A stretch of DNA of 37,706 bases from the IMG/VR virus record IMGVR_UViG_3300044949_000851, positions 1-37,706 of that record. One strand, written 5' to 3'. The notes beneath the pieces were generated by a model. That model was not told the origin of the DNA and made no database searches. It was given only the letters and a program-made list of their open reading frames with translations. Both the position numbers and the translations under genes were made by a program. Below are positions 456 to 22,507 of the stretch, in pieces; the first letter of the stretch is position 1; the number at the start of each line of letters is the position of its first letter. Source of the stretch: a virus.

Positions 456-1226
456 ATGCGGGGTCTGGCTCTCGTTTGCTGGTGTCTTTTCTCGTCCGTT
501 GCCCTCGGCCAGTACGGCCAGCTCACCTTGACCGTCACGCCCAAGACGGTATTGGCCGTTGAGTCATCCGCACCCGTACACCTCCACGGGGATCTGATCC
601 TGGCCGAGGGTGACGCGACAGTCACACGCAAGCCCGCTGCACTGATCGCACTCGTCACCGACTGCAAATTCTGGGACGTCACAGCCAGGCGAACCTGGAG
701 CGAATCTGGCGAGCTGGTGGAGATCGCTAGAACTGATGGCACACAGGAGCTGATCCTGACTGGGGAGCCTGGCGAGTATCTGGTTGAGGCGATCGCTTTC
801 GATGCAGAGCGAGGGATTGCCCGCGCGTCGGCTGTTGTCAGGCTTGGCGAGGTAACACCCGACCCCGAACCAGTACCACCTGGACCACCAGCACCTGACA
901 GCCTGCCGGTTGACTTCGATCGATTGGCATCCCGGGTAAACGGCTGGGCTGCTGGTGTACCGCGTCGCAAAGAGTACGCAGCCATCTATCGATCATACGC
1001 TGAGCGAATCGCCAATGACCCAACGCTGACAGTTGCCGGTGCTGGCAACCTGATGTCGGTCGATCTTCAGGCACTCACTCGAATGCTTCCCGAATCTGAT
1101 CGTCCCAAAGTTCGATCGCTTTTTGAGTCCATCAACCAGGATCTTCAGGGACGCTGGCCGCTCAGTAAGGGCGTGCTTGCGGTGTACTGGTCCTGCGTTG
1201 CCTCGGGACTGGAGGCGGGTCAATGA
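456..1226 (+). CDS. Predicted secreted protein with signal peptide and proline-rich linker
   Basis: The 256-residue product begins with a typical Sec signal peptide (MRG, hydrophobic core, cleavage expected after SVALG near residue 18). Residues ~20-130 are rich in alternating hydrophobic residues and look like a beta-sandwich. A proline-rich linker (PDPEPVPPGPPAPD, ~131-144) leads into a helical C-terminal domain. The ATG follows the preceding stop by three bases, and the stop overlaps the next gene as ATGA, so it is translationally coupled to the papain-like peptidase. An exported phage protein next to a peptidase suggests envelope-directed work such as lysis. I do not recognise the family. 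Confidence 0.75.
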   Translation: MRGLALVCWCLFSSVALGQYGQLTLTVTPKTVLAVESSAPVHLHGDLILAEGDATVTRKPAALIALVTDCKFWDVTARRTWSESGELVEIARTDGTQELILTGEPGEYLVEAIAFDAERGIARASAVVRLGEVTPDPEPVPPGPPAPDSLPVDFDRLASRVNGWAAGVPRRKEYAAIYRSYAERIANDPTLTVAGAGNLMSVDLQALTRMLPESDRPKVRSLFESINQDLQGRWPLSKGVLAVYWSCVASGLEAGQ

Positions 1227-2254
1227 GTGGACTAGAGCACGCAATCGGCCCAATGGGTTGGGGTGATGGCACGCTGACCGAAGCGGAGATGATCCGCATC
1301 GAGAACGAAACCTACGAACGCGCCGCCGCCGATATGCCTGTGGCGTATCGTAGCCGGCCAACCAACAACGACATCCTTCCAGGGATCCGTCGTCGATGGG
1401 TCGAAGCGATGGCCCGCAAGGGCATGGCTGACAACTCGATGTGCCTCAACACGCTGGAAGAGATCACCGTAGGTCGAAAGTATAACTGGCTACCGCAGGA
1501 CATTGGCTCATGCGTTGCGAGCAACACCTTCCGCGTCTGGGTCCAGCGAGCGATTGCACAAATCGCAGCCCGTGGAGACGCGGAGGAGTATCTTGGCCGA
1601 GCGGAGTTTGGCGCAGATTCGATCGCCCCTTACGCGCCGCAAAGCTACGGCATGGCTCGAAAGCGTGCCAACATGCGGGGAAGCGACGGCCTCTACTGCG
1701 AGCCAATGGCGGAATCGCTTATGAAGGATGGGGTGCTCGATTGCGGCACCCCGAAGCTATTGGAGATCCTGAAATCACAGAATGCTGACGGCGAGCGGAT
1801 GTTACCTGAGCCGATCGGCAAGCCATCGCTTTATCGTGCGTTCGGCAATTGGCAATACATTGAAGAGCTTCGCCAGTTCTGTGACCACCGCTTGCTAGCC
1901 TCCGTTAAGATCGAATCTGTCGATCAACACCTGGAAGCCAGCAAGCAGATGAAAACCGCTTTCATGTGCTCCATGATCGCGATTCGCAAGACAGGCGATC
2001 ACCCAGATGGGTTCCCAATTCATGGCCGCGATCCGAATAACCGATGGGCCCACAACATGGGTTGGAGTGGTCACTTCTACGATCGCTCTGGGAAACTCTA
2101 TTTCATTCTCAACAACACCAGTTGGGGTGGCAAGGCGATGTACAACATCCCAGCCGAGGAGCTTGAGCGATGGTACAAGGCTAAGCTTCCAACTGTCATG
2201 ACCCTCGAAGAGATTGACCTACCTGATTCACCTCCTTTGATCGTGATTGAATGA
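1223..2254 (+). CDS. Papain-like (C1-type) cysteine peptidase
   Basis: This 343-residue protein carries the papain-family active-site order: Gln92 and Cys97 in PQDIGSCVAS, His277 in RWAHNMGW, and an Asn (297/298) followed by Trp301 in NNTSWGG, close to the papain NSWG signature. No signal peptide is visible. The start ATG overlaps the previous stop (ATGA), and its own stop overlaps the next gene in the same way. Such peptidases may act on host surface protein during entry or lysis, or process virion proteins; the position between an exported protein and a membrane-anchored coiled-coil protein favours the first. Planctomycete walls were long considered protein-rich, which would suit a peptidase in place of a muramidase, but this is speculation. 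The fold call is fairly secure; the role is open. Confidence 0.75.
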   Translation: MSGLEHAIGPMGWGDGTLTEAEMIRIENETYERAAADMPVAYRSRPTNNDILPGIRRRWVEAMARKGMADNSMCLNTLEEITVGRKYNWLPQDIGSCVASNTFRVWVQRAIAQIAARGDAEEYLGRAEFGADSIAPYAPQSYGMARKRANMRGSDGLYCEPMAESLMKDGVLDCGTPKLLEILKSQNADGERMLPEPIGKPSLYRAFGNWQYIEELRQFCDHRLLASVKIESVDQHLEASKQMKTAFMCSMIAIRKTGDHPDGFPIHGRDPNNRWAHNMGWSGHFYDRSGKLYFILNNTSWGGKAMYNIPAEELERWYKAKLPTVMTLEEIDLPDSPPLIVIE

Positions 2255-2505
2255 GCAGCAAAAGCATGGCAAGCGAAATCGCTTTATACGTTGGTCCCGT
2301 TGTGGCTGCGATGGCTGGGGCTGTTGCTGCACTCTGGAAGCAGCAGGAGACTAGGAACGCGAAGCAGATCGAGGACATGCGGAAGGATCTGGAGAAATGC
2401 GCTCAGCAGTCTGACGAATGCTACGAGGACCGGCTGAGGCTAAATCAGTCGGTCGCCAGGTTGGAAGAAAGAGTCAACCAGCTGCATCCTAAAGCGGAGT
2501 CATGA
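2251..2505 (+). CDS. N-anchored membrane protein with coiled coil (holin or spanin-like)
   Basis: In this 84-residue protein one transmembrane segment (about residues 8-28, ALYVGPVVAAMAGAVAALW) is followed by a charged helical region with heptad character to the end (ETRNAKQIEDMRKDLEK ... VARLEERVNQL). That layout resembles phage inner-membrane spanins or small holin partners, but no family signature is clear. It overlaps the upstream peptidase gene and the downstream gene by ATGA junctions, so expression is coupled. The lysis assignment rests on topology and neighbourhood. Confidence 0.6.
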   Translation: MSSKSMASEIALYVGPVVAAMAGAVAALWKQQETRNAKQIEDMRKDLEKCAQQSDECYEDRLRLNQSVARLEERVNQLHPKAES

Positions 2506-2955: not shown

Positions 2956-3486
2956 ATGGCACTGCCGGACTCGTTCAAATTAGAGCAGGGAACCGCGATT
3001 GTTTGGGGCCAGCCATCCGCTTCGGGTGTGACGGCCAACCTGTCGCTGAACGCGCTTGCTGATGGTGCAGCGCGCATGGGTGCCAGCGTTGATCTTGGTG
3101 CTAATTGGGACCGCGACTACGCGCTTTATATCGTCGCGGAAACCGGAACCGCACCGACCGCTGGAAATGCGCACGACATCTATTTCGCGCACTCTCGCAA
3201 CAACACCGACTGGCCTGGAGGCGTGACCGGATCTGACGCCGCTTACACGCTGGGTACAAGTGACGCCAACCTCCGGCAGATTGGCCCGCCTGCCGGTTCG
3301 CTGATCCTCACGAACTCAGCCAATACGGTACTGCGCCAAAACGCTTTTCTATTTCGGCCAATCAGTCGGTACATCGCTCCGATCTGGGACAACAACTCCG
3401 GCCAAGCACTTCGCAACGAAACGACCGCGACCGACAACGAATCGCGGGTCATCTTGGTGCCGCTGATCGACGAGGTGATCGACTAA
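2956..3486 (+). CDS. Putative virion structural protein, tail-fibre module
   Basis: The 176-residue product is rich in Ala, Gly, Asn, Thr and Asp with a beta-rich pattern and no signal peptide or membrane segment. This composition is typical of small phage surface or decoration proteins. Its ATG follows the preceding stop by one base, and its stop (TAA 3484-3486) overlaps the ATG of the LamG gene by one base (TAATG), so the two are coupled. No specific family is recognised. Confidence 0.6.
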   Translation: MALPDSFKLEQGTAIVWGQPSASGVTANLSLNALADGAARMGASVDLGANWDRDYALYIVAETGTAPTAGNAHDIYFAHSRNNTDWPGGVTGSDAAYTLGTSDANLRQIGPPAGSLILTNSANTVLRQNAFLFRPISRYIAPIWDNNSGQALRNETTATDNESRVILVPLIDEVID

Positions 3487-4313
3487 TGCGTCACCCACGG
3501 ACTGCGGCAGAGTCTCAGTTTCCGCGACTGTACCCAGACTTGGGCTGGTGGTGTCCCTCGATCCAGCCGCTTGGTGGATCGCGCCTGCACGATCTGAGTC
3601 GCAGTCAAAACTTTGCCACGCTTACGAGTATGGACCCGGCGACCGACTGGGTGGTTAGTGATGGTCAAGGTGCCTTGGATTTCGACGGGTCAAATGATTA
3701 CGCGCTGACAACCGGACTCGCCTGCAATGGGTCAGCAGGTGATTTCACGGTTTCGGCCTGGGTGAAAACTACATCGACGACAAGAGGAACAATCTGCGGC
3801 GTAGTGGAAACTGGCACTGCCGGTATCCTTCACCTGGCAGTAAATACGATCAACACAACCACCGACACATCTGGAGCAATTTACTTTCAGGTTCGGCAAG
3901 CCGGTCACATTCAAGCATACGCTACAAGCACCGGAGTAAATGATGGACGATGGCACAATATCGTTGCTGTTCGTTCGATGGGTCTGGTGTCGGTTTATCT
4001 TGACGGAAGATCATTGTCTCTGACTTTTGCCACAAACGTGCCTGGCACAGAGCTTATCGTTTTTGCGCGTCAGCTTGCAATTGGATCAAGAAACCTGCGC
4101 GGTGTTTTTGATATTCCGCTGTCAGGCCAGCTTGATGACATCAGGCTTTTCAGCCGCGCATCGCTGATCGACGACGCAGCGACACTCTACCGTCTCGGTC
4201 GTGGCAATCTACCGCTGGCGAGGCGCAGGAGATACACCGAGCAGGCTGCACCAGCATTTCGCTCAGCATGGGCAGCAAGAAACCCAGTAATGATTGGTGG
4301 AGGGCTTCGGTAA
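3486..4313 (+). CDS. LamG / concanavalin-A-like lectin tail adhesin
   Basis: This 275-residue protein has a central LamG-type jelly-roll domain, about residues 55-230. Diagnostic stretches are LDFDGSNDY, FTVSAWVKT, GRWHNIVAVR, VSVYLDG and LSGQLDDIRLFSRA. These domains bind glycans, and phages use them in tail fibres or as carbohydrate-binding receptor proteins. The stop TAA overlaps the ATG of the next fibre gene. The final ~30 residues are basic (RRRRYTEQAAPAFRSAW). I infer a host-surface binding role. Confidence 0.8.
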   Translation: MRHPRTAAESQFPRLYPDLGWWCPSIQPLGGSRLHDLSRSQNFATLTSMDPATDWVVSDGQGALDFDGSNDYALTTGLACNGSAGDFTVSAWVKTTSTTRGTICGVVETGTAGILHLAVNTINTTTDTSGAIYFQVRQAGHIQAYATSTGVNDGRWHNIVAVRSMGLVSVYLDGRSLSLTFATNVPGTELIVFARQLAIGSRNLRGVFDIPLSGQLDDIRLFSRASLIDDAATLYRLGRGNLPLARRRRYTEQAAPAFRSAWAARNPVMIGGGLR

Positions 4314-5848
4314 TGTACGCACGCAACAACGCAACTCCGCGACCGATCTTGCTTGGTAGGGTTGTAAAGATCAGCGACGGAACGCTAGAGACATCCAGCG
4401 TGTCTATTGAAGTCTCAAAGGACGGTGGATCCTGGTCCGCTGGTGCAGGAACCACGGCAGTAAATCGTGGTGAGTGGTCCTATGTTCCGACTCAGGGAGA
4501 AACGGATTGCGAGACGCTGCGAGTCGTCGCATACAAGACTGACTACTATTCCGCGTCTGCCCAGGTAGTATTCAGCGCCTCCGCGACCTTCGGCTACGCT
4601 GGGACCGATCAGAGCAAGATCGCCAATCCATCATCAACCCAGAACCTCAGCGGGACAACGATCAAGGCTGTGACCGATGGCGTCACTGTGACGACAAACA
4701 ATGACAAAACCGGCTACTCATTGACTCAGGCTTTCCCATCAAACTTTTCAGCATTGGCGATCACCGCTGGCGGTGCGGTGACAGTCGGCACGAACAACGA
4801 CAAGACAGGCTACGCACTGACGCAGGCGTTTCCGTCGAACTTTGCCGCGCTTGGAATCAATAGCTCAGGCCACATCTCCCGTGTTACGCTGGTCGATACT
4901 ACGACCACCAACACCGACATGCGAGGAACTGACAACGCGGCACTGGCCAGCAATTGGACCGCGACCAGGGCGGGATACCTTGATTCCGTTTTGATCGCAG
5001 CGAACAGCAATCGCACAGTGCAAGTGACTGGATCGCATCATGTAGCCGCAGATATTCACGAACTACAGCCCGCAGTTATTGACAACACTCACTTTGCCGC
5101 AGGTGCGATCGACTCCAATGCACTCGCAGCATCGGCAGCAACCGAGATTGCAACCGCTGTAGGTGCGCTAACGCAGTTGGTCGATCTGACAACGATGATT
5201 GTCAACGACGGCACGGCCAATGCTCGCTTCTCTACATCAGCTCTCCAGAATGCTCCAACTGGTGGCGGTGGAGGTGGAACCGGAACGGGAGCCCGTACCG
5301 TGGTTGTCACCGTGACGCTCTCAGCGTCGCCAGTTGAAGGTGCCAGCGTGCGTCTAACCAAGGCTGCCGAAACCTACGTTGGATCGACAAACGCTTCTGG
5401 CCAAGTCACGTTCAACGTTGACGATGGAACCTGGACCGTTGCTATCACCTCGCCAGGTGCCACCTTTGCCGGCGCGTCCCTGGTAGTCGATGACGATGAG
5501 ACCGTCAGCTACAGCCTGACCGCGATCAGCATCACGCCAAGCCCAGCAACCCAGATCACCGGCTACTACACTTGCTACAGCCACTTGGGAGTGGTCGAGG
5601 CTGGTGTATCGATCACCATGCAATTGGTCGGGCTTGCTCAGGGTTCGGTAGGCTTGGCACTTGATAACCGCCTGCGAACCGTGACAAGCGACGCAAACGG
5701 TGTCGCACAGTTCACCAACCTCTTTCCAGGTTGCCGTTACAAAGTCTATCGCGGAGCCGCTGAGAACAAGGCTTGGTACGTGAACCTTCCCGATACCGTG
5801 ACGGGCGACCCAGTGGAACTGGGATCAATCTATGGCGACGATGAATAG
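4313..5848 (+). CDS. Tail-fibre-like protein with NDKTGY repeats and C-terminal Ig-like domain
   Basis: I start this 511-residue protein at 4313, where TAATG couples it to the LamG gene and GGAGGG lies about eight bases upstream; an in-frame ATG at 4268 would add 15 residues inside the previous gene. Residues ~125-185 contain two copies of a ~33-residue repeat (TNNDKTGYSLTQAFPSNF), a motif common in phage fibre proteins. A glycine linker (GGGGGGTGTG) precedes a carboxypeptidase-regulatory or Ig-like fold (VTVTLSASPVEGASVRLTKA ... GQVTFNVDDGTWTV). A second similar domain closes the protein. Its end overlaps the large terminase gene by 17 bases. Confidence 0.75.
   Translation: MYARNNATPRPILLGRVVKISDGTLETSSVSIEVSKDGGSWSAGAGTTAVNRGEWSYVPTQGETDCETLRVVAYKTDYYSASAQVVFSASATFGYAGTDQSKIANPSSTQNLSGTTIKAVTDGVTVTTNNDKTGYSLTQAFPSNFSALAITAGGAVTVGTNNDKTGYALTQAFPSNFAALGINSSGHISRVTLVDTTTTNTDMRGTDNAALASNWTATRAGYLDSVLIAANSNRTVQVTGSHHVAADIHELQPAVIDNTHFAAGAIDSNALAASAATEIATAVGALTQLVDLTTMIVNDGTANARFSTSALQNAPTGGGGGGTGTGARTVVVTVTLSASPVEGASVRLTKAAETYVGSTNASGQVTFNVDDGTWTVAITSPGATFAGASLVVDDDETVSYSLTAISITPSPATQITGYYTCYSHLGVVEAGVSITMQLVGLAQGSVGLALDNRLRTVTSDANGVAQFTNLFPGCRYKVYRGAAENKAWYVNLPDTVTGDPVELGSIYGDDE
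4680..4860 (+). repeat. Tandem coding repeat in fibre gene
   Basis: Two in-frame units of roughly 100 bases encode near-identical segments built on NNDKTGYxLTQAFPSNFxAL, separated by a short TAGGAVTVG linker. Synonymous differences between the copies show that the protein repeat is maintained while the DNA has diverged. Confidence 0.7.
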
Positions 5849-7988
5849 CGACCGCAAGGATAAGCTTGCCGAGCAGTACCGCGTCCACCGTGAGAAGATG
5901 GCGGAGCGGATGCGTCAGCAGGCTAAGGCCGCTGCGGACATTGGCGAGATTCCGCCCATTGGCGATCCAGTCCGCAGACAGGAGGCAATGGATAGCCTCC
6001 GCGCATACTGCGAGATTTACCGACCATCAGCCTTTCACCTCGGCTGGTCCGATGACCACTTGCGAGTCCTTGAGCGGATTGAAACCACAGTCAAGGCTGG
6101 TGGCCTCTTCGCGATGGCGATGCCACGGGGTTCCGGCAAAACCACAATTGCGATCACTGCCGCTACATGGGCTCTGCTTTGCGGTTTCCGCCGCTGGGTA
6201 TGCTTGGTTGGTGCCACTGAGCCCAAAGCCCAGAAGCTTCTGAACGGTATCAAATCGGAGCTGCGGTTTAACCCGCTGCTGCTGGCCGACTTCCCCGAAG
6301 TCTGCTATCCGATCGTCTTACTAGATGGCAAGCCAGCCCGGGCGAATTCGCAGACGTACCGCGGGAAGAATACCGCGATTCGATGGCTGGCCGATAACAT
6401 CATGCTGCCGACGATCGAGGGTAGCCAGGCATCAGGCTCACTGGTGTCCGTCTGCGGTATCACTGGGGATATTCGAGGACAGCAGGAGACGACACCAGAT
6501 GGCGAGGTCATCCGCCCTGATTACGTGATCCTGGATGACCCACAGACGCGGGAATCGGCTAAGAGCGGAACCCAGAACGATGACCGGCTAGCCATCGTCA
6601 ACGGCGACATTTTGGGACTCGCTGGTCCTGGTGTGAAGATCGCTGGTGTGATGCCATGCACCGTTATTCAGCGTGGCGACATGGCAGACCAATCGCTTGA
6701 CCGCCAGGTCTCTCCTGAGTGGCACGGCGAGAGAACGCAGTTGCTCTATGGCATGCCCGAAAAGATGGATCTCTGGCAACGATACCAGGAGATTCGGGAA
6801 GCTTGCTTCCGCAACGGCACCGATACCACCGAGGCCACAGAATTCTATCGTGACAACCAGGCGGAGATGGATAAGGGAGCCCGCGCCGCTTGGGATGATC
6901 GATTCAACGAGGATGAGCTATCCGCAATCCAAAACGCAATGAACCTCTACTTCCGCGATGAGGGGGCATTCTTTGCGGAGTATCAAAATCAGCCGATGGA
7001 GCTTCGCGCTGATGATACGATGCTGAGCGAAACCGCCTTAGCTAAGCGGATGGGCCACACGCCCAAGGCTATCGCACCAGCGAACACCACCAAACTTGTC
7101 GCGATGGTTGACGTACAGCAGGAGATCCTTTTCTACGCTGTGACAGCCTGGCGTCACGATATGACCGGCACGGTAATTGAGTACGGCGCCTGGCCGAATC
7201 AGCGGACTACGAACTTCCGCATGACTGGCGTGAGAAACAATTTCACCAAGCAGTTCCCTGGCGAATCGCTCGAATCGAAGATTGCCAAAGCACTGACGGC
7301 AATTGAGAAGGATCTATTCAGCCGTGTCTGGAAGACTGAAGACGGGCTGGAGCTCGCAATCAATCGGATGCTGATCGATGCCAACTGGGGACTCAGCCGA
7401 AACATCGTCTACCAGCATTGCCAGCGATCAACCCACAAAGGGTCGATCTACCCTAGCCACGGCAAGGGGATCGGTGCATCGAATGAACCATTAAACGCGA
7501 ACCACACCCGCAGGCTTGGGAGGGCTGTTGGTCAGCATTGGCGGGTGGACAGGGCAAAGGACAGCCCAATCCGTCACGTTCTATTTGATGCCAACTGGTG
7601 GAAATCGTTCCTCCATTCCAGGCTGTCTACCGAACCAGGTACACCTGGCAGCCTGACGCTGTACCAGGCAAGCGGGATCGAGCATGAAACCATAGCTAAG
7701 CACCTACGCGCAGAATTCCCGGTGCGAACTGAGGGACGCGGTAGGACGGTTGATGAATGGAAGATCAAAGCAGACAGGCCTGACAACCACTGGTTAGATT
7801 GCTTGGTCGGGTGCTGTGTAGCTGCCTCGGTGGAGGGTTGCAGATTGCCCAGCGACGCGGGACCGAAGCGACGCAGATCAGCCGCACAGATGCCACAGGT
7901 GACCACAGGCGAGCAGCCACCAGCCACCCAGCAGCCACAGCAGGAAGCACCAAGGAAGCGACATCGCGGGAGCGTTGACTACCTATGA
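5832..7988 (+). CDS. terL: Terminase large subunit (DNA packaging ATPase and nuclease)
   Basis: This 718-residue packaging motor has a Walker A at residues ~98-105 (PRGSGKTT), a Walker B with DD at ~235-236 (YVILDDPQ), and a C-terminal nuclease-like half with acidic motifs (AMVDVQ, LIDANWG, NHWLDCLVGC). Length suits large phage terminases. The first ~45 residues are a charged helix. The tail after residue ~680 is low-complexity, rich in Gln, Pro and basic residues. The ATG overlaps the end of the fibre gene by 17 bases; ATG 5841 is an alternative. No small subunit precedes it, which is unusual. Confidence 0.92.
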   Translation: MATMNSDRKDKLAEQYRVHREKMAERMRQQAKAAADIGEIPPIGDPVRRQEAMDSLRAYCEIYRPSAFHLGWSDDHLRVLERIETTVKAGGLFAMAMPRGSGKTTIAITAATWALLCGFRRWVCLVGATEPKAQKLLNGIKSELRFNPLLLADFPEVCYPIVLLDGKPARANSQTYRGKNTAIRWLADNIMLPTIEGSQASGSLVSVCGITGDIRGQQETTPDGEVIRPDYVILDDPQTRESAKSGTQNDDRLAIVNGDILGLAGPGVKIAGVMPCTVIQRGDMADQSLDRQVSPEWHGERTQLLYGMPEKMDLWQRYQEIREACFRNGTDTTEATEFYRDNQAEMDKGARAAWDDRFNEDELSAIQNAMNLYFRDEGAFFAEYQNQPMELRADDTMLSETALAKRMGHTPKAIAPANTTKLVAMVDVQQEILFYAVTAWRHDMTGTVIEYGAWPNQRTTNFRMTGVRNNFTKQFPGESLESKIAKALTAIEKDLFSRVWKTEDGLELAINRMLIDANWGLSRNIVYQHCQRSTHKGSIYPSHGKGIGASNEPLNANHTRRLGRAVGQHWRVDRAKDSPIRHVLFDANWWKSFLHSRLSTEPGTPGSLTLYQASGIEHETIAKHLRAEFPVRTEGRGRTVDEWKIKADRPDNHWLDCLVGCCVAASVEGCRLPSDAGPKRRRSAAQMPQVTTGEQPPATQQPQQEAPRKRHRGSVDYL

Positions 7989-8503: not shown

Positions 8504-9938
8504 AGAAGCACGCAGCGCCGCGACCAATTGGCTTTCACGCTTCGGGCGGTACATTGCAGCCGAACCGAACCAGCAGCGTCGCGATCCAGGAACGCGGATC
8601 CAATCTAGCGATGCCTTGCTAGATTCTCAAAAGCGACGCAGGGTTATCGAGGGTGCTCGGGAGCTAAACCGAAATTTCAGTGTTGCGGCTTGGGCAATCC
8701 GCAAGCACCTGGACTACGTTTCTACGTTTACTTTCCAGGCTAACACTGACGACCCAGTTTTTAATGAACGCCTTGAGGCGTTAATGAACTGGTATAACCG
8801 CCCGATCAATTGCGACATCGCAGGCCGTCACTCGCTGCGACGTATGGTCCGCCTCGCTGAGATGCGTAGGGTGTTGGATGGTGATGTCTTTCTAGTTAAG
8901 CTTCGTGATGGACGTCTACAGGCAATCGAAGGCGATCGAGTCCGCTCACCAGATAACCGCGTCGATCCGATGTACAACTGGGTCCACGGTATCAAAGTTG
9001 GTGCTGGCGGATCGATGAATCGTGTTGCGGTGTGGTCACGTTCGCTGGATGGCCAGTACACCTTCGAGCGGGACATCAGCGCGGGCAACGTTATTCAGCT
9101 TGCCTACTTCGATTCGTTCGACCAGGTGCGTGGAGTAAGCCCACTGACATCCGCGATCGCGTCATTCCAGGATTCGCTGGAGGTGACCGACTACGCACGG
9201 GCCAAAGCTAAGATAACCCAACTCTTCGCCCTCGCCATCACCCGCGAAATGGCTGATGACGATGCCGAGCTGTATGGCGATGAATACAAAGTCGATCTAG
9301 GTCGTGGTCCCGTCAAGCTTGAACTAGACCCAGGCGACAAAGCTGAGTTCCTAGAGTCACGCCATCCATCAACAGAGTTCCAGGCGTTCCTGACGCTTAG
9401 CCTACAAGCCGCACTTAAGAGCTTGGATATTCCCTGGTCGTTCTACGATGAAGCGTACACCAACTTCTTTGGTTCCCGCGCTGCTCTTATCCAGTATCAG
9501 CAGGCTTGCAAGGCAAAGCGAGTAGATTTGAAAGAGATGCTTGACCGCATCACCGTTTGGAAGATCCAGCAATGGATGGCTGCGGGAATCCTTTCGATGC
9601 CTGCGGGCGTACAGCAGATCGACCAAATCTACTGGGACTGGATCCCAGACGGCGTGCCCTATTGGAATCCTGAGCAGGAAATCACAGGCGATCTGATGGC
9701 CGTCGAAGGAAAGCTGCGCACTCGATCAGAGATCCGCCGTGAGAAGTACGGCGACGATTGGCGGGATGTTGTCCGCAAGCTTGCCGAGGAGCGGGACTAC
9801 CTAACGCAGTACGGCTTTGACGAATCGACCGAAGGGCTGGTTACTGTCCCCGCGATGGCTGAGCCAGGCGTTCCGGAAGAGACCACCGAAACAGAAGGAG
9901 AAGACAATGGGCAGCAGCCGTCTAACGATGTTTCGTAG
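8496..9938 (+). CDS. Portal protein, lambda family
   Basis: This 480-residue protein forms the dodecameric DNA gate at the capsid vertex. It shows the lambda-type portal signature: an N-terminal helical region with RRRVIEGARELNRNF, an AIEGDRVRSP segment, a DQVRGVSPLTSAI motif after YFDSF, and a helical crown ending in an acidic, Gln-rich tail. Length is typical. The order gpW, portal, protease, capsid supports the call. The 3' end overlaps the protease gene by 32 bases. Confidence 0.9.
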   Translation: MIKEARSAATNWLSRFGRYIAAEPNQQRRDPGTRIQSSDALLDSQKRRRVIEGARELNRNFSVAAWAIRKHLDYVSTFTFQANTDDPVFNERLEALMNWYNRPINCDIAGRHSLRRMVRLAEMRRVLDGDVFLVKLRDGRLQAIEGDRVRSPDNRVDPMYNWVHGIKVGAGGSMNRVAVWSRSLDGQYTFERDISAGNVIQLAYFDSFDQVRGVSPLTSAIASFQDSLEVTDYARAKAKITQLFALAITREMADDDAELYGDEYKVDLGRGPVKLELDPGDKAEFLESRHPSTEFQAFLTLSLQAALKSLDIPWSFYDEAYTNFFGSRAALIQYQQACKAKRVDLKEMLDRITVWKIQQWMAAGILSMPAGVQQIDQIYWDWIPDGVPYWNPEQEITGDLMAVEGKLRTRSEIRREKYGDDWRDVVRKLAEERDYLTQYGFDESTEGLVTVPAMAEPGVPEETTETEGEDNGQQPSNDVS

Positions 9939-10989
9939 CCAGGCTACCAAAGCACCGGCAAGCGGTGTTGATGGCCGAACGATCAAGCGGGCCAAGGTGA
10001 TCGAGGCAGGGAGTCTAAACGACTCTCGGCCAATCGTCGTTGATGCTGTCACGCTCCAGCAGGTCGCTGACATCGGCAACGGTGCAACCCGTGGAATCAA
10101 AGCACGCTGGACGCACCCGCACATGTCGAGCGATGGCCTCGGGACCACCGTTGCAAGGGCACGGAATTTCCGCGTCGAGGGAAACGCTGTTTACGCTGAT
10201 TTCACCATGCTTTCGGCAAGTGATAACAGTCCAAAGGGCCAGCAGGGTGCGTACCTCCTGGAGCTTGCCCAAGAGGATTCCGAGACGTTTGGATTGTCGA
10301 TCGTGGCTGACTTCTCGGATGAGATGCTAGCCGCTTTGGAATCCCTCAAGCCCGGCGAAAAAGCACCATTGCGGATCAAGGGGCTGAGGGCTGTTGACTT
10401 TGTTGATGAGCCGGCCGCAACCCGTGGTGGGCTCTTTGATCTATACGACAAGCGAGACTTGGCGCCGGTTGTTAGCTCGCTGATTGAGACTCACTTTTCG
10501 GGTGTTCCGAAAAAGGAAGTAGTTGAAAGACTACTTGGTTTTCTGTCGCTTCACTACGGAGAAGAAGTTATGGCTGATGCAGCGGTGGACGCTGTCGAGA
10601 CTCAGCAGCAGGAACAGTCCGCACCTGTGGCACCTGCACCCGCTGCGATGAGCCTTGAGGCTGCGCAACCTTACATGGTTGCGTTTGGTGATCGAGGAGC
10701 CAAGTGGTTCCTTGAAGGAAAGACGATGCAGGAATGCCTGTCGATCGTCAATGGCGAGATTGGCGAGGCTAACGCGAAGCTTCAGTCCCAGGTGGATGAG
10801 CTAACCGCGAAGCTTGCAGCGATCGAGGGAAAGCTTGGCGAGGAGCAGCCACTGAGTGCCGCTCCTGCTGGCAAGGAGTTGACCGCAGCTCAGATCGAAG
10901 CAGCAGAGCGAAAGGCGAAGCTTGCAAAGGCTGGTGCTGATGAGAAGGCGATTCGATGGGCTGGGGCGTTCGCTCCTCGCTCGAACTGA
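9907..10989 (+). CDS. Prohead protease fused to scaffold domain
   Basis: This is a 360-residue protein with the start at 9907, chosen for the AGAAGGAG site just upstream; an ATG-like start at 9817 lies inside the portal gene. The N-terminal ~180 residues look like an HK97-type (U35-like) capsid protease, with His70/72 in ARWTHPH and Ser131 in FGLSIVAD as candidate catalytic residues. The C-terminal ~140 residues are Ala, Gln and Glu rich with a coiled coil (AKLQSQVDELTAKLAAIEGKL), typical of a scaffold. An in-frame ATG at 10570 could give a scaffold-only product, as with lambda C/Nu3. It precedes the major capsid gene. The protease family is inferred from motif spacing. Confidence 0.75.
   Translation: MGSSRLTMFRSQATKAPASGVDGRTIKRAKVIEAGSLNDSRPIVVDAVTLQQVADIGNGATRGIKARWTHPHMSSDGLGTTVARARNFRVEGNAVYADFTMLSASDNSPKGQQGAYLLELAQEDSETFGLSIVADFSDEMLAALESLKPGEKAPLRIKGLRAVDFVDEPAATRGGLFDLYDKRDLAPVVSSLIETHFSGVPKKEVVERLLGFLSLHYGEEVMADAAVDAVETQQQEQSAPVAPAPAAMSLEAAQPYMVAFGDRGAKWFLEGKTMQECLSIVNGEIGEANAKLQSQVDELTAKLAAIEGKLGEEQPLSAAPAGKELTAAQIEAAERKAKLAKAGADEKAIRWAGAFAPRSN
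10570..10989 (+). CDS. Possible internal-start scaffold protein (nested in protease gene)
   Basis: ATG 10570 is in frame with the protease gene (codon 222) and is preceded by GGAG at 10559-10562 with a seven-base gap. Translation from here gives a 139-residue acidic, Ala/Gln-rich coiled-coil protein with no protease domain. Nested scaffolds of this type are known from lambda Nu3 and relatives. The in-frame start and ribosome site are visible; use in vivo is inferred. Confidence 0.5.
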   Translation: MADAAVDAVETQQQEQSAPVAPAPAAMSLEAAQPYMVAFGDRGAKWFLEGKTMQECLSIVNGEIGEANAKLQSQVDELTAKLAAIEGKLGEEQPLSAAPAGKELTAAQIEAAERKAKLAKAGADEKAIRWAGAFAPRSN

Positions 10990-17626: not shown

Positions 17627-17989
17627 ATGGCAACAAAAATCGAGCGGGCTAATGTGGTGATCGCGAACGGAGCAACGACCAGTGCCGCTGTGTCGGTGCC
17701 ACTGGATAAAATTCCTCTGGCAGTGGTCACGCCAGCCGCGTTGACTGGAACTTCAATGAAGTTCGAGGTTAGCGACGATGGCGGAACCACCTACAAGCCG
17801 GTCTACAAGGAAGGTACTGAGTACAGCGTGACGGTGGGAACTAGTCGCCACGTTGCACTGGATGCAGCCGCGTTCCGTGGTGTGATTGGTGGACCATCGA
17901 CGACGCCAACTAATCTCAAGTTGGTGAGCGGATCAAGTGAAGGTGCTGCGCGTACTCTCCAGGTAGTTTTTGGAATCGACAATGGCTAA
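17627..17989 (+). CDS. Small beta-rich virion protein
   Basis: This is a 120-residue protein with GAGGAC nine bases before the ATG. The sequence (LTGTSMKFEVSDDGGTTYKPVYKEG) resembles small phage proteins describing a position-and-value beta sandwich seen in tail modules, but I cannot name a family. Its stop lies eight bases inside the start of the cysteine-rich gene, so the two are coupled. Confidence 0.6.
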   Translation: MATKIERANVVIANGATTSAAVSVPLDKIPLAVVTPAALTGTSMKFEVSDDGGTTYKPVYKEGTEYSVTVGTSRHVALDAAAFRGVIGGPSTTPTNLKLVSGSSEGAARTLQVVFGIDNG

Positions 17990-19490
17990 CAAGCATGGGG
18001 CTGGGTGTACATGCTGTGCTGGTGGTGATTGTGGTCCATGCACTGAGACGATCACCACGATCGCCGCGTCGGTTGGTAGCGATACCTATTCGTGGACAAT
18101 CAACCAGGCGATCAACGCGATCCCTGGTTGCTCGCTGGTGTTGCGATACTGCTCCACGCCCGTGGAATATGAGATTGTTGACTACTCCGCTGCCGTCGCA
18201 TGGGACGGAACCCAGGGAGACTGCTGGAAAGCGTTCTACAATTCGTGGCTTCCTGGTGGTTCAAACGTAGACTGCTGCAATCCGCAAGGAGGAGGCGGGC
18301 CAGGATTTCAGGGCACTGGCTACGGCGAGGCGTTCGGTGGTCCCGGTGGTGGTCCTGTTCCTGCTGGTTCCTGCGTTCCGTGTTCCACCTGGTACAACGC
18401 GAAAGACTATGAAGAAGATCCATTCTACCCAAACATTTATACGCAGTGGGGAGGATGTAAACCGACTGAGTATTACGTCTTTACGTTCAAGGTAGAGGAC
18501 CTTGAACTGTTCTACAAAGTCACAACCTGGCAAGAGGTGTCACTGCTCTTGACGTTTGCGCCGAGCGGTACGCAGCAAGAGATCTTCGCGGTGTTTGGCC
18601 GAACCGTCTACGCGAAAACAGAACGCACAATACGCTACAAAATATCTGCGCACTACAATGACAACTGCCCACGCAACAGTGATTGCACAATCATTTCCCC
18701 AACTTGCGATGAAGGCGGGTTAGGTGGGCTGATGGGCTTTTTCTATTGCCTATTTGGTCAGCAGCAGATTACCTCTTATCAGTATCCTGCAGGGACACCA
18801 GGTCCTCTCTATAGCTTCCGCTTTATTGATTGCGCTGTAGACGCTCCAAACTGGGTGCAGATGACAACAAGCACGTTTTGTTTCGACTCAAGTCAGACAT
18901 ATGCAGCAGAGTGCAACTCAATTGCACCATGCGGAAGTGGTGAAAGAGATGCTGATGAGCAATGGTGGACTGATCGCCCAAACGACCCGACTTGTGCCGC
19001 GATCAATTCTGAAACCTATTTCAACAATCAAGTGATGGGATTCCCTCCGCCGCTGAATAATATGATCGTTCAGTTCTTAAACTACGCTACACCGTTTACA
19101 AACTCGCTTTCAAACAATGGAGCGTATGACGAAATCTGTGATAGCTTCGACATGGATCCTGTAGCTGGTGGCATTTATGGCACTTGCCAGGAACCTTGCC
19201 GAGGATTCGGGATCGCAAACGATCAATTTCAGGGGACGCTGACGGTTGACTGTGACGATGTCTGTGGCAATCACACGATTAACCGCGCATTCGGTGCCAC
19301 CAAAAATAGCATCACAATGACATGGACAACATGCCCGGTGAGCCAGTGCAACGAGTCTGAAGCAGATCCGGTATCCTGCCGGTCGTGGCTAAGTGACTGC
19401 TGCCAGGGAACCGACCCAGCAGATACCACATTGCCAGTCAATTTCACATCAGCGACCACAGCAACAATCACAATCAACTGCCAACCATGA
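17982..19490 (+). CDS. Cysteine-rich large virion-associated protein
   Basis: This 502-residue protein carries 33 cysteines by my count (about 6.6 percent), many in pairs or CxxC groups (CTCC, CGPC, VDCCN, SCVPC, SDCCQ), with Gly/Pro-rich turns and many aromatic residues. Start ATG 17982 is preferred over an in-frame TTG at 17970. No signal peptide is visible, so disulfides would have to form after release, or the cysteines bind metal. It lies at the end of the tail-tip block, which suggests a receptor-binding or tip protein. No family is recognised. Confidence 0.6.
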   Translation: MANKHGAGCTCCAGGDCGPCTETITTIAASVGSDTYSWTINQAINAIPGCSLVLRYCSTPVEYEIVDYSAAVAWDGTQGDCWKAFYNSWLPGGSNVDCCNPQGGGGPGFQGTGYGEAFGGPGGGPVPAGSCVPCSTWYNAKDYEEDPFYPNIYTQWGGCKPTEYYVFTFKVEDLELFYKVTTWQEVSLLLTFAPSGTQQEIFAVFGRTVYAKTERTIRYKISAHYNDNCPRNSDCTIISPTCDEGGLGGLMGFFYCLFGQQQITSYQYPAGTPGPLYSFRFIDCAVDAPNWVQMTTSTFCFDSSQTYAAECNSIAPCGSGERDADEQWWTDRPNDPTCAAINSETYFNNQVMGFPPPLNNMIVQFLNYATPFTNSLSNNGAYDEICDSFDMDPVAGGIYGTCQEPCRGFGIANDQFQGTLTVDCDDVCGNHTINRAFGATKNSITMTWTTCPVSQCNESEADPVSCRSWLSDCCQGTDPADTTLPVNFTSATTATITINCQP

Positions 19491-19993: not shown

Positions 19994-20162
19994 CGGCGAT
20001 CCATTTGATAGCAACCCTCACAAGATGGGCGAGCTTGATCGCCTCTATTGGTTTCAGGGCTGGCTAGATGAATGGGGCGAGAATCGTATTCAGGCGATCC
20101 GATCTAAACTCAATTTGAGGAACGACCATGCAAAAGTGGACGCTAAAACAGATCGGGCCTAA
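19944..20162 (+). CDS. Rmf/CrpP-fold-like small protein
   Basis: The 72 residues include GREAFNNGDPFDSNPHKMGELDRLYWFQGWLDEW, which has the layout of ribosome modulation factor and CrpP-like proteins: A-x-x-G, an N-P-Y/H turn, then W-x-x-G-W. AGAGGCG lies before the ATG. Rmf dimerises ribosomes; CrpP-like phage relatives are mostly uncharacterised. The N-terminus is basic (MGKKKTANSRGR). The match is by pattern only. Confidence 0.5.
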   Translation: MGKKKTANSRGREAFNNGDPFDSNPHKMGELDRLYWFQGWLDEWGENRIQAIRSKLNLRNDHAKVDAKTDRA

Positions 20163-21006
20163 CGTCTTTGAGATATGCTTCTGGGACCTAGGGCAGGATA
20201 CAGCTTGGATGTTGCTTCGCTCTGACGTTCATCATGACAACCCCAAATGCGATCAGGATCTAGAGCGGAAGCACTTAAATGAGGCACTAGAATCTAATTG
20301 CCCAGTGCTGGACAACGGAGACTTGTATTGCGCGATGCAAGGCAAGTACGATCGACGCAGCTCGAAGGAATCAATCAGGCCAGAACACCAAACGAATAAC
20401 TACCTCGATTCGCTGGTCTCTACTGCGGTTGAATTCTACGAGCCCTACAAATCGATCCTTGCTATCTGTGGTCGCGGGAACCATGAAACGGCGATCCAGA
20501 AGAATCATGAAACGGATCTAACCGATAGGCTGACTGCTGGCCTGCGATCGGTTGGAGGCGTCACGCTTTCCTCTGGCTACAGTGGTTGGGTTCGGCTATC
20601 AGTCAAATCATCTGCCAACCCAGATCGATACGTCGCGTCCGCCTGGCTCCACCATTACCACGGATCGGGAGGTGGTGGACCAGTAACGAAAGGGGTGATC
20701 CAGACTAACCGGATTGCGAACTACACGCCAGACGCTAACGTGGTGCTTACTGGTCACACGCATGATGATTGGATCTTTTCGATCCCTCGCCAGCGCATCA
20801 GCCAAAACGGGAAGGTGTACCGTGATGAGCAATTGCACGTTCGGTGCCCTGGCTACAAGGACGCCTGGGGTGATGGCTCGGGCGGGTGGGAGGTAGAGCG
20901 AGGCATGGGACCGAAGAATATCGGATCGGCTTGGCTAGGGATAACGGTCAGCCGTGGCAAGAGTGGCGTGGATCGACTCAATCTTGAAGCGGTGAGGGCT
21001 AAATAG
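20128..21006 (+). CDS. Calcineurin-like metallophosphoesterase
   Basis: This 292-residue protein carries the five metallophosphoesterase motifs in order: D33-x-H35 (SDVHH), GD near residue 65 (DNGDLY), GNHE at 117-120 (GRGNHE), a His in LHHYHG, and GHTH near residue 210. These coordinate two metals and cut phosphoesters such as nucleotides, RNA ends or proteins. GAGGAACGACC precedes the ATG. It sits between the Rmf-like gene and a DNA methyltransferase, so a nucleic-acid or nucleotide role is plausible. The substrate is unknown. Confidence 0.85.
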   Translation: MQKWTLKQIGPNVFEICFWDLGQDTAWMLLRSDVHHDNPKCDQDLERKHLNEALESNCPVLDNGDLYCAMQGKYDRRSSKESIRPEHQTNNYLDSLVSTAVEFYEPYKSILAICGRGNHETAIQKNHETDLTDRLTAGLRSVGGVTLSSGYSGWVRLSVKSSANPDRYVASAWLHHYHGSGGGGPVTKGVIQTNRIANYTPDANVVLTGHTHDDWIFSIPRQRISQNGKVYRDEQLHVRCPGYKDAWGDGSGGWEVERGMGPKNIGSAWLGITVSRGKSGVDRLNLEAVRAK

Positions 21007-22127
21007 TGGGCGAGTATGTTCTACATCACGGCGACTGCCTGGAAGTATTGCGAACGCTTGCGGATAGCAGCGTAGACGCTGTGGTAACAGATCCACCATA
21101 CGGCTTAGCCTTCATGGGTAAGCGTTGGGACTACGATGTTCCTGCGGTCGATGTTTGGGCTGAGTGCTTGCGTGTTCTCAAGCCGGGTGGTCATCTGCTG
21201 GCGTTCGCTGGAACGAGGACGCAGCACCGGATGGCGGTGCGGATTGAGGACGCGGGGTTTGAGATCCGCGACATGATCGCTTGGGTCTACGGATCGGGGT
21301 TCCCGAAGTCGCTGGATGTGAGCAAGGCGATTGATAAGGCGGCGGGGGCAGCGCGGGAGGTGGTGGGTCACTGCAAGCGCACAGGTAAAGAGGCCGGCAC
21401 TTACGGAGCCATGGCCGGAGACAACTTGATCACCGCCCCCGCCACCCCCGAAGCCAAGCAATGGTCCGGCTGGGGCACTGCCCTAAAGCCCGCGATGGAG
21501 CCGATCACCGTTGCCCGTAAGCCGCTTATTGGCACCGTTGCCGCCAACGTGCTGGAGCATGGCACCGGGGCAATCAATGTGGATGGGTGCAGGGTGGGGG
21601 CTGAGGACATGAGCGGCCAATGGGACCGCGAATGGAATCAGGACGGGACTTTTGGAAACGGCAAACGCGCAAGCCAAGGTAAACAGTGCGCTCCCGGTCG
21701 CTGGCCCGCGAACCTCATCCACGACGGCAGCGAGGATGTAACCGAACTGCTAAGCGATTCCGCCCGGTTCTTCTACTGCGCGAAGGCGAGCAAGCGGGAT
21801 CGGGATGATGGGCTGGATTCCTTCGCCACACAGATCACCGACGTCCACGCAAAGCACTATTCTCGGCGCATGGATGAGGTGGTTCGAGCAGACGGAAAGC
21901 CGCCAGCGATGGGCAAGAATACCCACCCCACGGTCAAGCCCACCGACCTCATGCGCTACCTCTGCCGACTTGTAACCCCACCAAACGGAACCATCCTTGA
22001 CCCGTTCACGGGATCAGGTTCAACCGGCAAAGCCGCGATGCTGGAGGGCTTCCAGTTCATCGGCATCGAACGGGAGGCGGAATACGTGGAGATTGCCAAG
22101 GCTAGAATTGAGGCGGTAAAGAAGTGA
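21006..22127 (+). CDS. DNA methyltransferase, beta class (N6-adenine or N4-cytosine)
   Basis: This 373-residue enzyme has catalytic DPPY at residues 29-32 (VVTDPPYGLAFMGKRWDYD), with the SAM-binding motif LDPFTGSGSTGKAA near the C-terminus. The catalytic motif before the SAM motif defines the beta class. The segment between ~110 and 300 is the target-recognition region. Translation starts at GTG 21006, overlapping the previous stop by one base, with no other start nearby. No partner restriction enzyme is visible, so it is probably an orphan methylase protecting phage DNA. The specificity cannot be read from sequence. Confidence 0.9.
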   Translation: MGEYVLHHGDCLEVLRTLADSSVDAVVTDPPYGLAFMGKRWDYDVPAVDVWAECLRVLKPGGHLLAFAGTRTQHRMAVRIEDAGFEIRDMIAWVYGSGFPKSLDVSKAIDKAAGAAREVVGHCKRTGKEAGTYGAMAGDNLITAPATPEAKQWSGWGTALKPAMEPITVARKPLIGTVAANVLEHGTGAINVDGCRVGAEDMSGQWDREWNQDGTFGNGKRASQGKQCAPGRWPANLIHDGSEDVTELLSDSARFFYCAKASKRDRDDGLDSFATQITDVHAKHYSRRMDEVVRADGKPPAMGKNTHPTVKPTDLMRYLCRLVTPPNGTILDPFTGSGSTGKAAMLEGFQFIGIEREAEYVEIAKARIEAVKK

Positions 22128-22507
22128 CAACCAAGAAGCCAACGAAAAAACAATCCCGCCTAGAATGGGTGAAACCTCCCAAGCTAAAGGAAGGCGACAC
22201 CGAGACTAACGCCCAGGGTGGAAAGCACTCGTTCACGCTGGCAAGGTACGATGCAATTCCACCTGTGGTTCTTAGGCTACTGGCCCAGTGCAACGGATTC
22301 GGCTTGCGCAAGTACGGGCTCCACAACTGGAAAAAGATACCGATGGAAGAGCATATCGGGCACGCCATGAATCATCTGGTCGAGTGGTCCGCTGGTGATC
22401 GCTCCGAACCTCACCTAGTCAACGCCCTGACCCGTGTTGCGTTCGCCTTGACTCTGGCAGTTGAAGCAGGATTGCAGGCACCAACCTATGACCATCCAGA
22501 AGTTTGA
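22124..22507 (+). CDS. DUF5664 / dNTP pyrophosphohydrolase-like protein
   Basis: This 127-residue protein starts at GTG 22124, overlapping the methyltransferase stop. After a basic N-terminus it shows the motif series of the phage dATP/dGTP diphosphohydrolase N-terminal family (DUF5664): GGKHSFTLARYDAIPP, the GLRKYGLHNWKKI block, and HAMNHLVEWSAGDRSEPHL. All-alpha MazG-related folds of this type hydrolyse or tune dNTP pools. PurZ, which accompanies such enzymes in diaminopurine phages, is not visible here. Confidence 0.65.
   Translation: MTTKKPTKKQSRLEWVKPPKLKEGDTETNAQGGKHSFTLARYDAIPPVVLRLLAQCNGFGLRKYGLHNWKKIPMEEHIGHAMNHLVEWSAGDRSEPHLVNALTRVAFALTLAVEAGLQAPTYDHPEV

Follow-up and report, generated by a model that had tools for sequence, protein, structure and literature searches.

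A papain-like peptidase and its exported partner in a probable phage lysis cassette

Results

The gene cluster at positions 123-2505

We analysed a viral DNA of 37,706 bases (the entire IMG/VR record IMGVR_UViG_3300044949_000851, called the window in what follows), and in particular a cluster of four small genes near its start, the third of which encodes a papain-like cysteine peptidase. The genes of the cluster are the following (aa, amino acids):

123-452, + strand: 109-aa small protein with a C-terminal hydrophobic helix (INWEGLTNFLKEILPIILPIILKLLVGV), seen by hydropathy; candidate holin-like or disruptor-like component
456-1226, + strand: 256-aa exported protein with a signal peptide, a beta-type domain, a Pro-rich linker and a helical-type domain (domain types judged by eye)
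1223-2254, + strand: 343-aa papain-like cysteine peptidase, described by alignment, AlphaFold model, Foldseek and VIA-align
2251-2505, + strand: 84-aa membrane/coiled-coil-like protein, seen by hydropathy; candidate i-spanin (Rz-like) or holin partner

An earlier sequence-only reading had singled out the last three genes as a group coupled by ATGA overlaps, beginning with an exported protein and ending with a membrane-anchored coiled-coil protein, and each part of this description held. The overlaps lie at 1223 and 2251, and a further one at 2502 couples the 84-aa gene to its downstream gene; the product of 456-1226 begins with a signal-type hydrophobic stretch ending ALG/Q; and the 84-aa protein has a single hydrophobic segment (residues 10-28) followed by charged coiled-coil-like sequence. 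The gene at 123-452, just upstream of the three-gene set, counts as part of the cluster.

The product of 1223-2254 is a papain-like enzyme

We aligned the peptidase of the window with 21 relatives whose identity to it ranges from 37 to 98%, which gives an alignment of 22 rows. Four conserved positions stand out, in the order Q, C, H, N that is the order of the catalytic residues in papain-like peptidases:

1496-1498, + strand: codon of Q92, oxyanion-hole glutamine, invariant in 22 of 22 rows
1511-1513, + strand: codon of C97, nucleophile, invariant in 22 of 22 rows; homologous site of the intein insertion in contig L031 (see below)
2051-2053, + strand: codon of H277, catalytic histidine (WAHNM), invariant in 22 of 22 rows
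2114-2116, + strand: codon of N298, catalytic asparagine of an N-x-S-W motif, present in 21 of 22 rows

The AlphaFold model built from these 22 rows has a predicted local distance difference test score (pLDDT) of 85.3 and a predicted template modelling score (pTM) of 0.86; an earlier model from 10 rows was poor (pLDDT 51) and served as a weak pointer only. The newer model displays the left helical domain and the right beta domain of the papain fold, with C97 at the beginning of a helix (97-117). When it was submitted to Foldseek, the first match was xylellain (PDB 3ois, E 1.1e-6), a cysteine protease of Xylella fastidiosa, and the top 50 matches were all papain-family enzymes; structurally similar proteins of uncultured phages annotated Peptidase_C1 were found as well. 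With VIA-align, xylellain is superposed over 228 residues with Z 17.8, a root mean square deviation of 3.5 A and 13% identity, Z reaches at least 5 in 321 of 983 aligned chains, and nearly all the matches listed bear papain-family titles. Xylellain, the best fold match, is a bacterial enzyme, and we know of no pairing of it with a phage exported protein.

The pro-forms of C1 enzymes (procathepsins B, X and L, propapain) give Z of about 14-16. Many of them can be superposed on the model from its residue 1 or 2 onwards, whereas mature forms mostly align from about residue 69. Hence residues 1-68 occupy the position of a procathepsin propeptide in the structural alignment; the catalytic domain covers about residues 69-335. 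What distinguishes the phage enzyme from these proteins is that it has no signal peptide and no match to Peptidase_C1 (PF00112) or to a PDB sequence: nothing useful came from searching Pfam, PHROGs and the PDB sequences with the single peptidase or with an alignment of it, PF00112 was found in none of 15 records at E 0.01, and hmmscan of the peptidase and 10 relatives did not find it either.

Between the window and contig L004, the peptidase gene has a nonsynonymous divergence (dN) of 0.033 for a synonymous divergence (dS) of 0.514, which points to strong purifying selection. Together with the existence of relatives at 37-98% identity, this means that the open reading frame (ORF) is real and not a product of chance. 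We consider it practically certain that 1223-2254 encodes a papain-like enzyme. The C1-type peptidase with a Q/C/H/N set of the sequence-only reading thus stands as regards the fold and Q92, C97 and N298; the histidine conserved in all 22 rows is H277 and not the nearby H284.

The peptidase is paired with the exported protein

Relatives of the peptidase were found in 33 viral contigs besides the window, by four peptidase scans, one exported-protein scan and one later scan of viral contigs. The gene order was read with a profile for each of the two proteins. The gene immediately 5' of the peptidase encodes the exported protein in 28 of a first 31 relatives and in 2 found later, hence in all 30 testable contigs, and in the window too. 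L006, L007 and L009 begin at or within the peptidase, so that their upstream gene is not assessable and they are outside the 30; L158, which ends within the exported gene, was left out. In the 31 relatives the gaps between the matched parts are of 2-68 bases, except in L039/L040 (333). Some contigs form near-identical sets (L011/L012, L039/L040, L059/L060/L067, L130/L131 and some others), and the independent cases are therefore fewer than these counts.

We ran blastp comparisons between 41 genes of the window and 12 records. All 12 have a match to the exported protein and to the peptidase, but only two, the close records G001 and G002, have one to the terminase and the portal, which are unmatched in the other ten; the major-capsid row of this comparison is uninformative, as longer antisense ORFs were retained. 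Hence the pair moves between phages which have little else detectable in common, and a cassette transferable between phages is the best reading of these data. The distances measured on the exported protein and on the peptidase are correlated (r 0.90), but linkage by itself would produce such a correlation, and we give it little weight.

The exported protein, which bears a Sec-type signal peptide, is without a match in Pfam or PHROGs and without a significant one among PDB sequences (best E 0.064). Neither Pfam nor PHROGs recognise the gene pair of the window. Neither protein has a relative in INPHARED or PLSDB at E 0.01. Small exported Cys/Arg-rich proteins adjoin the cassette at L039:10164-10487 and L141:2865-3170; we take them to resemble planctomycete secreted proteins.

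A second peptidase family and two intein-type insertions

Another scan with the exported protein reached contig L117, whose exported protein is 36% identical to that of the window over 125 residues (E 6e-26). Its gene overlaps by four bases that of a peptidase of 258 aa which carries papain motifs but differs from the first. It is not matched by the profile of the first family, and a profile-profile comparison of the two families found no relation (probability 0.2%). The second family matches xylellain in PDB (E 1.2e-4 alone, 8.5e-7 as a profile) and has no relative in INPHARED at E 0.01. A scan with the second peptidase gave 20 loci, of which 19 were analysed (L142, with 34% over residues 36-128, was left out), and the exported family lies directly 5' of it in 18 of the 18 contigs with upstream sequence, L139 starting inside the peptidase. 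This means that in these phages the first peptidase is replaced, next to the same type of partner, by a second one of papain type. The pair then occurs in 52 related viral contigs, 33 with the first family and 19 with the second.

In L031 the peptidase ORF (736 aa) contains a 366-aa insertion (L031:1961-3058) directly before the catalytic Cys. Its first residue is Cys and its last Asn, the catalytic Cys following as +1, and Pfam recognises in it an intein splicing domain (PF14890, E 6.3e-13) and LAGLIDADG_3 (E 1.7e-4). It thus has the features of an intein, and its splicing is predicted. In L140 the second-family peptidase bears a comparable insertion immediately ahead of its catalytic Cys (about 4915-6069), which is related to that of L031 (28% identity, E 4e-27). 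An insertion directly before the catalytic Cys indicates that the site is conserved and functional; a role of the inteins in timing is speculation.

Small membrane proteins adjoin the pair

The products of 123-452 and 2251-2505 have one hydrophobic segment each, and the small membrane proteins which one expects in a lysis cassette are therefore present. The 109-aa protein has no Pfam or PHROG match. A C-terminal helix of the same type is present in the neighbour of the exported protein in L008, L019, L032 and L039, and in most contigs of the second group (L133, for instance) the exported gene is preceded by one for a short protein whose C-terminal helix is hydrophobic or amphipathic.

On the 3' side of the peptidase, a protein with one segment followed by coiled-coil-like sequence is found in the window, L008, L010, L013, L014, L016, L017, L020 and L031, and at a greater distance in L032. 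Proteins with one or two segments flagged by hydropathy are found in L019, L039, L055, L059, L060 and L061, and upstream in L011; the copy of L018 has two. The 84-aa protein has blastp relatives in G002 and G005. In the second group, a protein of 64-77 aa, with a hydrophobic stretch at its N-terminus and a charged tail, lies 3' of the peptidase in 11 of 19 contigs (L127-L131, L133-L136, L138, L139), the L133 copy being below the transmembrane threshold in hydropathy. The coiled-coil-like proteins have weak PHROG matches to Rz-like spanins (E 0.002 in the window, 9.9e-5 in L014, 5e-4 in L031; 9.9e-5 to 0.067 beyond the window), of a kind that coiled coils give easily. A single holin family was matched, weakly and by the L017 protein only (phrog_689, E 0.091), and a simple pattern found no lipobox candidate among the ORFs of the window.

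No recognisable muralytic enzyme accompanies the cassette

The sequence-only reading had not come upon a lysozyme, an amidase or a transglycosylase elsewhere in the window and had called for a domain search. We made this search with Pfam, and at its sensitivity the 68 translated ORFs of the window contain no muralytic domain. Eight muralytic families were also searched for directly in first-group records, that of the window included: Phage_lysozyme, Amidase_2, NLPC_P60 (PF00877, E 0.1), SLT, Peptidase_M15_3, PG_binding_3 and Glyco_hydro_108 were found in 0 of 15, and Peptidase_M23 in 0 of 19. These negatives concern first-group records, possibly incomplete, at Pfam sensitivity, which a novel fold could escape, the second-group phages being outside the searches. 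As a positive control, the same search found PG_binding_3 in Akkermansia phage Chantilly (ON453895) with E 6.2e-11; Glyco_hydro_108 was not found in Chantilly. Two broad Pfam scans were read for the 25 commonest of 69 and of 34 families, so that weak muralytic matches may lie outside them, and for this question we used the direct searches instead.

Position of the cassette in the window

The cassette stands at the head of the structural-gene block of the window, on the + strand. The other features of this block are:

3486-4313, + strand: LamG match in the fibre- and lectin-like genes 3' of the cluster
from 5832, + strand: terminase with a GpA-type nuclease domain
from 8496, + strand: portal
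9817-10989, + strand: prohead-protease/scaffold-like gene between portal and major capsid protein (tentative, by position)
from 11025, + strand: GP7-type capsid protein
20128-21006, + strand: metallophosphoesterase-like gene (weak match), end of the block
21006-22127, + strand: N6/N4 methylase gene, end of the block
22124-22507, + strand: dATP/dGTP diphosphohydrolase-N gene, end of the block

Genes for the tail tube and of tape-measure type continue the block to about 22,500, and the replication-type genes are on the - strand. Among the tail genes, 17970-19490 encodes a 506-aa Cys-rich protein without Pfam or PHROG match.

This arrangement recalls phage lambda, where the lysis cassette is ahead of the terminase and portal genes: like S-R-Rz/Rz1, the cluster combines compact membrane protein(s) with one soluble enzyme. 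It differs from lambda by its papain-like enzyme and its fixed exported two-domain protein, and by holin and spanin identities that are weakly supported.

As the peptidase is encoded 5' of the head genes, one may ask whether it is a papain-type prohead protease, a role in virion maturation which the sequence-only reading had itself raised. This is highly improbable. The slot between portal and capsid is tentatively filled by 9817-10989, while the peptidase lies elsewhere, at 1223-2254; it is conserved across phages in which no match to the terminase or the portal was detected; and the protein constantly paired with it is exported. The gene 9817-10989 has no Pfam or PHROG match of note, and it occupies the position of the annotated head maturation protease of Chantilly, between the portal and the capsid gene, with a weak similarity to it that lies mostly in the coiled-coil part.

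Indications of the host

The capsid protein of the window has its closest match, among 50,697 phage records, in Chantilly (25.5% identity, E 1e-12). Akkermansia belongs to the Planctomycetes-Verrucomicrobia-Chlamydiae (PVC) superphylum, as do the Planctomycetes. Chantilly differs in having an annotated endolysin with PG_binding_3 adjoining the portal gene, a domain found in none of the 15 cassette records. The cassette-bearing record G004 encodes a DUF1559/N_methyl protein (L078:6023-7018, E 7.2e-53), and PMC2754498 calls the DUF1559 domain specific to the planctomycetes group; none of 14 control genomes has it. No relative turned up in two scans of bacterial genomes, and the host can therefore not be read from prophages.

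Discussion

Lysis, entry or modification of the host surface

We conclude that 123-2505 is probably a lysis cassette in which the position of the endolysin is held by a papain-like peptidase. Several observations weigh against this reading. The position of N298 is a Thr in L039. The membrane proteins match holin and spanin families weakly or not at all, and the short C-helix proteins have a signal peptide in some groups and none in the window. A fibre-like gene is matched in 9 of the 12 records compared by blastp, mostly over short stretches. The genes that follow the module in three second-group contigs (L123-L125) resemble, by eye, DNA-metabolism genes and not structural ones. DUF1559 is found in 1 of 19 records, and not in the window. 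Finally, the lytic activity of the peptidase is a prediction.

The recurrence of the fibre-like sequence would suit a peptidase packaged in or near the tail fibres, which would cut an envelope protein (S-layer-like, for example) during infection. The cassette is just 5' of the fibre- and lectin-like genes in the window, and in G009 the module is flanked on one side by a tail-completion protein and on the other by a gene that weakly matches a tail-fibre assembly family. Such an entry function is nevertheless unlikely: the constant neighbour of the peptidase has a Sec-type signal peptide, which would be unusual for a virion protein, the pair is common to phages without a detectable terminase or portal match, which is hard to understand for a part fitting one virion, and genes of membrane proteins adjoin the peptidase. 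For these three reasons we favour lysis over entry, two roles which the sequence-only reading had left side by side; its papain-type enzyme and its lack of a recognisable muralytic domain are retained, the lytic role being what we infer.

The apparent DNA-metabolism neighbours in L123-L125 would agree with superinfection exclusion or another modification of the host envelope, in which the pair alters the surface of the infected cell without lysing it; the partner is exported, and receptors could be trimmed by the peptidase. We hold this to be very unlikely, as the cassette heads the + strand structural block in the window, the peptidase itself has no export signal, and, no other lysis enzyme being found in 15 records, another solution for lysis would be needed everywhere.

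Substrate of the peptidase

Within a lytic role, the peptidase could be an ordinary muralytic endopeptidase cutting the stem peptides of peptidoglycan, in the manner of CHAP or NlpC/P60 enzymes, which serve phage lysis. PMC8586454 ascribes a papain-like topology to the CHAP and Amidase_5 domains of endolysins, a predicted uncultured-phage protein named 'Peptidoglycan binding-like' (A0A6J5MXS7) is structurally similar to our model (Foldseek E 3.9e-5), and Planctomycetes possess peptidoglycan according to PMC4432640. We consider this possibility rather unlikely, since the best fold matches are C1-type enzymes that cleave proteins and since no wall-binding domain was found in the peptidase with Pfam and PHROGs.

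Planctopirus limnophila can dispense with most of its genes for peptidoglycan synthesis, and the deletion mutants that were made are normal in growth and appearance (PMC10632474). A protease would make sense against a planctomycete-type envelope, and its target is perhaps the protein-rich envelope of Planctomycetes. We regard a protein-rich wall layer of a planctomycete-type host as the likelier substrate and peptidoglycan cross-bridges as the second choice; host, substrate and lytic activity are all inferred here.

A proposed course of lysis

Most likely, the coupled genes would be translated together, late in infection. The 256-aa partner would be exported by Sec and wait in the periplasm, while the peptidase, which has no signal peptide, would collect in the cytosol, where its N-terminal pro-like segment would probably keep it latent. 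The 109-aa and 84-aa membrane proteins would breach the inner membrane and contribute to disrupting the envelope, and the peptidase would presumably be released through a holin. It can be expected that the freed peptidase and the exported partner would then attack peptide bonds of the envelope.

One may go one step further and suppose that, in phages of bacteria in which protein forms most of the load-bearing envelope, the muralytic endolysin has been replaced by a zymogen-like papain peptidase acting only with its exported partner, the pair being mobile as a unit, drawn from two papain families and gated by an intein in some phages. Taken as a whole, this proposal is tentative, and we would sooner doubt it than rely on it.

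Relation to known lysis enzymes

Lysis enzymes with a papain-like fold are already known (CHAP, NlpC/P60, Pei); a lysis of a protein-walled host by a protease only would go further. CHAP and NlpC/P60 endolysins are cysteine peptidases or amidases of papain-like fold used for lysis (PMC8586454), while the enzyme described here is of C1 type, with Q-C-H-N and an exported partner, and NlpC/P60 domains were found in none of the 15 records. The pseudomurein endoisopeptidases PeiW and PeiP of methanogen viruses also lyse, by cutting peptide bonds, a host without ordinary peptidoglycan (PMC12596118); they belong to another enzyme family and another host, and are likened to our peptidase by description alone. 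The main text of that 2025 survey of viral lytic proteins does not contain the terms papain, planctomycet or peptidase c1, and among the literature titles found none describes a papain-type lysis enzyme in phages of Planctomycetes.

If our reading is true, a phage can lyse bacteria of unusual envelope by proteolysis in place of wall hydrolysis. The reading would then give a handle on the way in which phages of Planctomycetes release their progeny, and would bear on the question of what carries the load in planctomycete envelopes.

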